DNA of 64,000 nt from contig NZ_LMHU01000001.1 in assembly GCF_001428505.1 (NCBI RefSeq), positions 1,257,813-1,321,812 on the forward strand, read 5' to 3'. The position numbers were made by a program, and so were the translations under genes. Source of the stretch: Terrabacter sp. Root181. Its GTDB lineage: Bacteria > Actinomycetota > Actinomycetes > Actinomycetales > Dermatophilaceae. This document shows, one piece after another, positions 8,031 through 26,013 of the stretch; position 1 is the stretch's first letter, and each line of letters begins with the position of its first letter. A model generated the notes under the pieces. That model was not told where the DNA came from. It did no database searches and worked only from the letters and a program-made list of their open reading frames with translations.

Positions 8031-8093
8031 GCACGACGGCGCCACGGCACCGTCACGCCTCAGTCACGCCTCAGCCACCGAGAAGGACCACCG

Positions 8094-24455: not shown

Positions 24456-24737
24456 TCAGCCGGCAACGTCCCAGAGCATCTGGGCGCGCTCGGTCGGCGT
24501 CGTGCCGCCCCAGATGCCGAAGGTCTCGGGCACGCGGAGCGCGTGGTCGAGGCACCGCTCGCGCACGGGGCAGCCGGCACACACCATGCGGGCGGCCTCG
24601 GTCTGCTCGCGGCGCTCGCGCTGGTCGAGCTCATGGTCGTCGGCGAAGAACTGCTCGACGGCCTTGGTGCGGCACCGACCCTGCTCCTGCCACTCGTACG
24701 AGGAGTAGGTGGGGCGCGGAAGGCGAGTGATCGTCAT
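24456..24737 (-). CDS. WhiB-family iron-sulfur transcriptional regulator
   Basis: The product is 93 aa. Four cysteines (C22, C53, C56 and C62) bind the [4Fe-4S] cluster. The GIWGG turn (74-78) and basic C-terminus contact sigma factor and DNA in the family. WhiB-like proteins are found only in actinobacteria and their phages and sense redox or NO. GGAGGA precedes the ATG. Transcribed divergently from a CarH-like gene; its -35 overlaps that of the neighbour (24798-24805), so both likely share regulation. The subclass (WhiB1 to WhiB7) cannot be assigned by eye. Confidence 0.92.
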   Translation of the reverse strand: MTITRLPRPTYSSYEWQEQGRCRTKAVEQFFADDHELDQRERREQTEAARMVCAGCPVRERCLDHALRVPETFGIWGGTTPTERAQMLWDVAG

Positions 24738-24775
24738 GGCTTCCTCCGTCGGGTCCGGTCGAGCGATCTGATGCC

Positions 24776-24797
24776 GAACCTACGCAGAACCTACGCA
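24776..24797 (+). repeat. two perfect tandem 11-bp repeats, candidate operator
   Basis: GAACCTACGCA occurs at 24776-24786 and again at 24787-24797 with no gap, one helical turn apart. The second copy abuts TTGCAC, the -35 of the downstream regulator gene. Each copy read on the minus strand contains TAGGTT, a -10 box for whiB. The position suits binding of the CarH-like protein, because Thermus CarH is known to contact head-to-tail repeats of about 11 bp around a -35 element. Confidence 0.65.
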
Positions 24798-24805
24798 TTG
24801 CACAA
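24777..24805 (-). promoter_or_regulatory. putative whiB promoter
   Basis: On the minus strand TTGTGC (24805-24800), a 17-bp spacer and TAGGTT (24782-24777) form a good promoter, starting RNA near 24770 and leaving a short leader with GGAGGA. The -10 lies in the first tandem repeat, the -35 inside the rightward promoter's -35. Confidence 0.55.
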
Positions 24806-24827
24806 GAGGTCTGCATAAGTTTAGGAT
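24798..24827 (+). promoter_or_regulatory. putative promoter of the CarH-like gene
   Basis: TTGCAC (24798-24803), an 18-bp spacer and TAGGAT (24822-24827) direct transcription to the gene at 24910. The -35 shares four bases with the -35 of the divergent whiB promoter, so one bound protein could block both. Confidence 0.55.
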
Positions 24828-24909
24828 CGGGGTGCCCGATCGGCGCCGGAGCGGCCCATGACGGGAATCACCGGCCGCTCCGCCCGATGCGGGCGACCAA
24901 CGTGAAACG

Positions 24910-26013
24910 GTGATGATCGACATGAACCCGCAGCCGGCAGTCTCGAGGGAGCCTGGCCAGACGGACCCCGCCGACCCCGAGCCGGGAGAGCGGCAGCCCG
25001 AGCTGGGCTGGCCCGTCGGCGCCGTCTCCGAACGACTCGCGATCGCCGCGCCGACGCTCCGCTCCTGGGACCGCAGGCACGGCGTCGGCCCGAGCCTGAG
25101 GACGCGCGGCAACCACCGTCGCTACACCGAGCTCGACATCCGTCGCGTGCTGCTCATGTCCCGCCTCACCGCCCAGGGAGTGCCCGCGCAGAGCGCCGCC
25201 GACTCCGTGCTCGCGATGGATGCGGCGTCCATCGCCGAGCGGCTCGACGGCGACCGAGGGCTGACCGCCCTCCGGGCCGCTGCCTCCGCCGGCGGTGACG
25301 CTGCCGGTGGCGTCGAGAGCGCTGGCGTCGCGGGCCGGGGCGGCGCTCCCGTCGGTGCGCGAGAAGGCCCCGAGCAGGAGGCCATCGACCTCGTCGAGGC
25401 CATCGTCGCCGCGGCCCGGACCCTCGACGCGCGCACGATGTCGCTGCTCTACCGCCAGGTGATGCGCCGCCGCGAGGTCGGTCGGGCCTGGGTCGAGGTC
25501 TTCGCGCCGGCGCTGCGCCGGGTCGGCGACCTCTGGCAGGAGGGCCGCCTCGGTGTGCAGTCCGAGCACCTGACCAGCGAGCTGCTGCAGTCCGAGCTGC
25601 GTGCCGTCGTGCGGGCCAACCGGCTCCGCGTGGCGGGTCTGCCCGTCGTGCTGGCGAGCGCCGACGACGAGCAGCACCACCTCCCCCTGCTCGCGCTGGA
25701 GGCCGAGCTCGCCCGTCACGGTGTCGCGAGCCTCTTCCTCGGCCCTCGAGTCCCGTCCGACGCCCTCGTGTCGGCGCTGCGTGAGTCGCAGCCGAGGGCC
25801 GTCTTCCTCTGGGCCTCGCTCGCCCGCCCGCAGGACGAGCCGTTCTGGCGGGATCTCGAGGTCATCGACTGGCCCCTCGAGGTCGTCATCGGTGGGCCCG
25901 GCTGGCCAGACGGTGTCGCCGGTCCGGGGGGACCCGCGTCGGTGACGCGGGTCGTCGACTTCGACGCGGCCGTGACTGCGCTCGTCCCGAAATCTGCTGG
26001 TTCCTTGCGCTGA
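24910..26013 (+). CDS. CarH/LitR-like MerR regulator with B12-binding domain
   Basis: The product is 367 aa. Residues 33-105 are a MerR-type winged helix (GWPVGAVSERLAIAAPTLRSW, then GNHRRYTELDIRRVLL). Residues 155-235 are a helical bundle carrying W209 and E219-H220, the Wx9EH signature of CarH-type photoreceptors that clasp adenosylcobalamin. Residues 240-360 are a Rossmann-like B12 domain; EQH (254-256) aligns with the ExH that supplies the axial histidine, although the following Gly of the family is Pro here. CarH proteins repress DNA in the dark and fall apart in light. Starts GTG 24910, ATG 24913 or ATG 24922 are all possible. No carotenoid genes are nearby. Confidence 0.8.
   Translation: MMIDMNPQPAVSREPGQTDPADPEPGERQPELGWPVGAVSERLAIAAPTLRSWDRRHGVGPSLRTRGNHRRYTELDIRRVLLMSRLTAQGVPAQSAADSVLAMDAASIAERLDGDRGLTALRAAASAGGDAAGGVESAGVAGRGGAPVGAREGPEQEAIDLVEAIVAAARTLDARTMSLLYRQVMRRREVGRAWVEVFAPALRRVGDLWQEGRLGVQSEHLTSELLQSELRAVVRANRLRVAGLPVVLASADDEQHHLPLLALEAELARHGVASLFLGPRVPSDALVSALRESQPRAVFLWASLARPQDEPFWRDLEVIDWPLEVVIGGPGWPDGVAGPGGPASVTRVVDFDAAVTALVPKSAGSLR

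Follow-up and report, generated by a model that had tools for sequence, protein, structure and literature searches.

A CarH/LitR-type MerR regulator divergent from a whiB gene, with tandem 11-bp repeats at their overlapping predicted promoters, in Terrabacter sp. Root181

The window is a stretch of 64,000 nucleotides from the 4.94 Mb genome of Terrabacter sp. Root181, and in a protein search its closest named relatives are Terrabacter and Terracoccus strains. It contains a gene for a MerR-type regulator with a B12-binding domain, which is divergent from a small whiB-family gene. Repeated units lie between the two genes and overlap the predicted promoters of both. The features are listed below; both promoters were predicted by eye.

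24459-24737, minus strand: whiB-family gene, WhiB3/WhiD-like paralogue with four Cys and GIWGG (93 aa; stop codon to 24456)
24765-24775, plus strand: degenerate upstream unit, GATCTGATGCC
24776-24786, plus strand: putative operator unit A, GAACCTACGCA, containing the predicted whiB -10
24777-24805, minus strand: predicted whiB promoter (-35 TTGTGC at 24805-24800, spacer of 17, -10 TAGGTT at 24782-24777)
24787-24797, plus strand: putative operator unit B, GAACCTACGCA, head-to-tail with A at an 11-bp pitch, in the whiB spacer
24798-24827, plus strand: predicted promoter of the MerR gene (-35 TTGCAC at 24798-24803, spacer of 18, -10 TAGGAT at 24822-24827)
24812-24821, minus strand: putative operator unit C, inverted, reading TGCATAAGTT on the plus strand, in the spacer of the regulator's own predicted promoter
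24910-26013, plus strand: MerR and B12-binding regulator of the CarH/LitR type (367 aa; Pfam, PDB and Foldseek)

The regulator matches Pfam models for an N-terminal MerR helix-turn-helix (MerR_1, PF13411; 39.7 bits, cut-off 21.6) and for the four-helix B12 domain (B12-binding_2, PF02607; 34.8 bits, cut-off 23). The Rossmann B12-binding model (PF02310) scores 17.4 bits, below its cut-off of 32.1, as it likewise does in the LitR-like protein L142 (26.5 bits); this part of the regulator nevertheless aligns to CarH in sequence and fold. In the PDB, CarH sequences match best (5c8d, E 8.1e-17; 3whp, named a probable regulator, E 6e-17). The initial annotation had singled out W209-x9-E219-H220 and E254-x-H256 as the residues expected of a cobalamin photoreceptor. 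These align with the W-x9-EH and E-R-H of Thermus thermophilus CarH, and the assignment to the CarH/LitR type holds, the protein being closest to CarH in sequence and fold. It falls short of the NCBIfam CarH equivalog NF052513 (82.6 bits against a cut-off of 400), and it does not belong with the class V LitRs, which lack a B12-binding domain, since its B12-binding_2 domain is above the cut-off. An AlphaFold model built from 8 sequences reached a mean pLDDT of 64.5. Foldseek ranked full-length CarH entries at positions 1 to 12 with TM-scores by query length of 0.37-0.40 and large rmsd; because of these low scores and large deviations, the model does not match the domain arrangement of CarH.

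The product of the divergent gene scores 78.1 bits with PF02467. C22, C53, C56 and C62 as well as G74-x-W76-G77-G78 are invariant in 22 WhiB rows, which places it in the WhiB family; at residue 75 the displayed rows have I or V, with the exception of L027. The WhiB alignment (A3) omitted the window itself (L012), L027, where homology is lost after about residue 57, and L034, which has no whiB. The genome with the broken L027 gene (G144, contig C1) has a second copy of the MerR gene on C12. Among solved WhiBs the best match of the window WhiB is WhiB3 (62 bits); it is not the closest WhiB3 copy in its own genome, as the C10 copy reaches 101 bits (of the six other WhiBs in the genome, L049 and L051 were also compared with the solved structures). 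In a WhiB tree of 93 columns with many unresolved forks, which included 6 of the 7 other own-genome WhiBs (all except L055), all 36 order partners and 22 of the 28 class partners fall in one set with the C10 WhiB. The window WhiB lies outside this WhiB3-like set, together with family paralogues and 6 class rows. From this placement, most class-wide partners of the regulator look to be WhiB3/WhiD-like, and the pair in the window resembles a second copy that has diverged.

Inspection of the intergenic letters bears out the two exact copies of GAACCTACGCA that had been reported, which occupy 24776-24797 without a gap and abut the TTGCAC at 24798. The described promoter geometry is also found in the letters: the predicted divergent -35 boxes have 4 bp in common, and the predicted whiB -10 falls within the first repeat. 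The inverted unit C at 24812-24821 is an addition, as it had been overlooked before. Of 5000 dinucleotide shuffles of the sequence between the genes, 0 contained an exact tandem 11-mer; when the window as a whole was shuffled, 4 of 60 did. Two or more matches to the repeat with one mismatch were seen in 9 of 100 window shuffles, so single copies are not rare. A general repeat search (seed 6, minimum 8) listed no direct-repeat family at the operator. The one other exact tandem 11-mer of the window, GTCACGCCTCA at 8052-8074, lies shortly upstream of a possible gene start and might be a direct-repeat site of another regulator. In the leader of the MerR gene there is a 15-bp inverted repeat (24847-24882). 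Among the genus relatives its two arms carry matching changes, pointing to a conserved hairpin.

The initial annotation had proposed looking for the repeats in related genomes as a check, and their conservation there was confirmed. With a 21-base pattern and up to 3 mismatches, applied to the own genome and the genus, the array turned up at the regulator/whiB locus and nowhere else; this holds for the own genome and for 7 of the 9 genus genomes. In G175 the match consists of the degenerate upstream unit and unit A; that upstream unit reads ATCTGATGCA in G170, G171, G173, G175 and G176. In the two remaining genomes, G174 (74% complete) and G177, neither the array nor a MerR orthologue nor a close WhiB is present: their best WhiB E-values are 7.1e-20 and 1.6e-19, compared with 3.2e-51 or better in the other seven.

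In a search of 186 family genomes, 24 had a clear orthologue at E <=1e-48 (L012-L035, among them the own genome), spanning 44-86% identity. One locus was counted per genome, leaving out second copies in G144 and G149, and loci L058-L066, being repeats of family members, were not recounted. A divergent whiB is present at 23 of the 24 loci, the broken L027 among them, and missing from L034. Within 22 family loci, a motif search found the strongest self-similarity at an offset of 11 (0.107, the next being 0.050). Units were then paired in 21 family loci, with L025 of the family and L094 and L095 of the order/class set left out of this scoring. The best head-to-tail pair is AACTTACGCA / AACTTATGCA at 11 bp with a score of 2.94, and each of these against the inverted TGCATAAGTT (pairs A/C and B/C) scores 2.98. 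None of 300 column permutations reached 2.98, the largest value being 2.64. Some variation occurs: L028, L029 and others have a second unit ending in TTCA, and L020 and L021 have no clear inverted unit C.

The pairing is not peculiar to the source genome and recurs in many families of the class. A divergent whiB was found at 36 of 39 loci from an order search of 396 genomes and at 28 of 47 loci from a class search of 394 genomes; these loci were top-scoring or hand-picked rather than random, so the counts are not prevalences. At loci from other classes (phylum search, 198 genomes) the count was 0 of 19. Most loci came with 1.5 kb of flank, so pairs further apart than this would be missed. On a 116-row tree made with a quick method, the paired label changes 7 times and the E/H/H state 4 times. 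The pair is also carried by small genomes of f44, where the core is present at the module in 8 of 8 genomes, two of them with a second copy there; elsewhere in these eight genomes, there are 3 other matches at 3 mismatches versus 7 for the reversed pattern. Two small f44 genomes (L136 and L154) have a second intergenic repeat pair 26 bp after the first. We are highly confident that the regulator and whiB form a conserved functional module.

Outside the family the intergenic block takes a different form. In 62 order/class loci the conserved block TACAACCGCTTCAGAGGTTGTTCAAG matches itself most strongly as a dyad, ACAACC-N8-GGTTGT, in the spacer between the whiB -35 and -10; 4 of 300 permutations reached the score of this dyad. 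For comparison we used promoters of WhiB3-like genes of the family that have no MerR partner. These loci were chosen by E-value and not by tree; 36 of 40 lack the partner and 4 have it, and together with L050 they give 37 partnerless promoters. Partner and kinship are confounded in the comparison between paired and partnerless promoters. The dyad or its core is exact enough for a pattern to catch it in 18 of the 36 paired order promoters and 6 of the 28 paired class promoters (24/64), and in 0 of 37 partnerless promoters; among the 22 family module loci the dyad was caught in 0. An 11-bp-spaced BCA-n8-TCAA is found in 32 of 36 order and 24 of 28 class paired promoters (56/64), in 8 of 37 partnerless promoters, and in 0 of 22 family module loci, whose units have GCA rather than TCAA at their end. 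With the looser BCA-n8-KCA, 19 of 22 family module loci are recovered, but 19 of 37 partnerless promoters too. The wider group thus shows both the dyad and the 11-bp spacing, and the family array is, judged by these patterns, a variant of its own.

The partnerless promoters also bear on whether the repeats are operator sites at all. They could be mere overlapping promoter elements or the sites of another factor, next to a conserved MerR gene that acts elsewhere. The whiB -10 and both -35 boxes do lie inside the conserved block, and in the partnerless promoters offset 11 is again the strongest self-match (0.112). An 11-bp TCAAG repeat is present in 8 of these 37, in 6 of them as TTCAAG-n5-TTCAAG, and TTGTTCAA is kept in 13 of 37, which makes part of the conserved block ordinary promoter sequence. 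A strict link between operator and partner was rejected on these counts. Moreover, four loci of one genus of the family (L203, L212, L217 and L225) keep the WhiB3-like/MerR pair, and the class-wide core was not seen there. Units B and C, on the other hand, occupy promoter spacers and are similar both to one another and to unit A, the array is unique to its locus in the genome at 3 mismatches, and the dyad or core sets paired promoters of the order and class apart from the partnerless ones. We consider it very improbable that the repeats are unrelated to the regulator, and highly likely that the regulator binds the A-C array.

Whether the regulator senses cobalamin can be judged from its residues and those of its relatives. 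W209, E219, H220 and H256 are present in 24 of 24 family rows and E254 in 23 of 24. All four B12 residues are found in 25 of 28 paired class rows and in 9 of 36 paired order rows; in the other 27 order rows the full set is absent and whiB is still divergent. Since these order relatives keep the pairing, it does not need B12 everywhere, and light acting through B12 cannot be the signal everywhere. The module might thus be real and sense neither light nor B12, with the regulator answering redox, a partner protein or oligomerisation alone, in the manner of CarA or the class V LitRs. CarA is described as repressing without need of B12 in the part of the source available to us (PMC8156234), and in the window regulator the GxxH element, the motif Gly and the Ser position are altered. 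The full conservation of the B12 residues in a family of such divergent orthologues, and their near-complete retention in the class, would however be hard to explain without a ligand, which disfavours this reading; we regard it as rather unlikely. The regulator probably binds AdoCbl.

A light signature of GxxW, EH, GxxH and GxxxP has been proposed, as far as the excerpt of the paper shows (PMC11796333). The regulator has GxxW, EH and GxxxP. In place of GxxH it reads D253-E-Q-H256, with Gly in 0 of 24 family rows, and by this signature we would not place it among the class I photoreceptors. Three residues past the ligand His, CarH has Gly and the regulator has Pro; a Ser position is also changed. 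Pro259 and Trp301 were considered as marks of lost B12 binding and rejected, because both occur in L143, which keeps the four B12 residues and lies between a photolyase gene and an ECF-size sigma factor gene. Both occur also in L145, which adjoins a photolyase gene and has Gln at the key Trp position. These two residues alone are therefore no argument against photoreception.

The signal could also be the availability of AdoCbl alone, without light, which we hold to be improbable. A cobalamin adenosyltransferase is encoded in the same genome, and, in line with the earlier statement that no carotenoid gene is near, a Pfam scan of 20 window ORFs found no carotenoid-synthesis family. Against this, AdoCbl-dependent CarH proteins are also inactivated by light according to the portions seen of two reports (PMC8156234, PMC9304148), and the relative L143 adjoins a photolyase gene. 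That light is a physiological signal of the regulator seems to us an even chance. It is not the sole candidate light sensor, as the genome has two other LitR-like genes. One LitR-like gene of this genome (L107, 8175-9110, plus strand) lies beside amine oxidase, DUF1365 and cyclopropane-synthase-like genes; this set is similar to the furan fatty acid genes that are light-induced in the Pseudomonas LitR system.

In the mechanism we propose, the regulator would repress whiB through units A and B, which cover the whiB -10 and spacer, and its own gene through unit C, which lies in the spacer of that gene's predicted promoter; the predicted -35 boxes of the two promoters overlap. The repressing form would most likely be the AdoCbl-bound oligomer in the dark, as in CarH. 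Light, or a lack of AdoCbl, would release the regulator, so that WhiB would be made under illumination or B12 shortage. We infer DNA binding, the sign of regulation, the AdoCbl ligand and light by analogy with CarH. Taken whole, as a MerR/B12 repressor of whiB and of itself that is released by light or lack of AdoCbl, this is an explanation towards which we lean slightly.

CarH of Thermus thermophilus and Bacillus megaterium (class I LitR) is the closest known system. It shares with the window regulator the MerR domain, the four-helix B12 domain, Wx9EH and the lower-ligand His. In looser agreement are the Rossmann part, below its Pfam cut-off here, and the tandem 11-bp repeats overlapping a promoter, which here have a deviating core and lie over predicted promoters. 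CarH targets carotenoid genes, whereas the expected targets here are whiB and the regulator itself. The CarH repeat is given as nAnnTnnACAn or nnnnTnnACAn in the available text of two papers, which count three repeats in Thermus and four in Bacillus megaterium (PMC8156234, PMC9304148). The window has two strong repeats and an inverted third, with TnnGCA rather than TnnACA: read as AACCTACGCAG, its units match 4 of the 5 fixed CarH positions, the exception being a G in place of the first A of ACA, and they fit the looser search rule N4-T-N2-RCR quoted from the same sources. The proteins differ by DxxH instead of GxxH and by the Pro and Trp at the two Rossmann motif positions.

The Streptomyces LitR gene sits between photolyase and sigma factor genes. 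The L143-type loci have such neighbours, from which we take L143 to be LitR, and share the E-x-H-x-L-P and LW motifs with the window regulator. Streptomyces LitR acts on the sigma factor gene litS, in the section of the paper at hand (PMC12705666); its output is thus a sigma factor, whereas that of the window regulator would be WhiB. Class V LitRs are characterised, in the available part of one study, as mainly from Micrococcales, without a B12 domain and with no known function (PMC9758184). The order-level relatives without B12 residues are likewise divergent from whiB, whereas the window regulator keeps its B12 domain. L088-type loci are presumably class V LitRs, and the order examined presumably Micrococcales.

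WhiBs of the WhiB3/WhiD kind act through sigma-A. The window WhiB is closest to WhiB3 among the solved WhiBs, yet it is a diverged paralogue. According to the text available of PMC4255298, the iron-sulfur cluster of WhiB-type proteins is sensitive to oxygen, and most actinomycetes have a WhiD orthologue. A whiB near a crt cluster in aquatic actinobacteria is mentioned in the excerpt of PMC12422013. Light-induced pigment in Micrococcales, as well as a MarR-type regulator behind light-induced pigment in Corynebacterium, is reported in that of PMC6739363. The latter illustrates that light control can run without LitR; the available text of PMC6739363 contains no occurrence of WhiB. Among the matches listed from the open-licence literature, we found no description of a CarH/LitR-whiB pairing, which is not proof of novelty.

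A real and conserved regulator-to-whiB module, a CarH/LitR circuit with an unusual target, is well supported. More tentatively, with the balance somewhat against it, this may be an ancient actinobacterial circuit in which a LitR-type AdoCbl photoreceptor directly gates a WhiB3/WhiD-type regulator, even in very small genomes, many of them of about 1.3-1.5 Mb, and whose B12 sensor decayed in much of the order into the class V LitRs. If so, the function of class V LitRs would be the control of WhiB3/WhiD. The pairing itself would offer these proteins a role, and the recurrent partner switch would give the WhiB3/WhiD group a direct upstream regulator. The comparison of these loci suggests that light or B12 controls the redox regulator WhiB, and the pairing would tie iron-sulfur control to light or B12 in a setting other than carotenoid genes.
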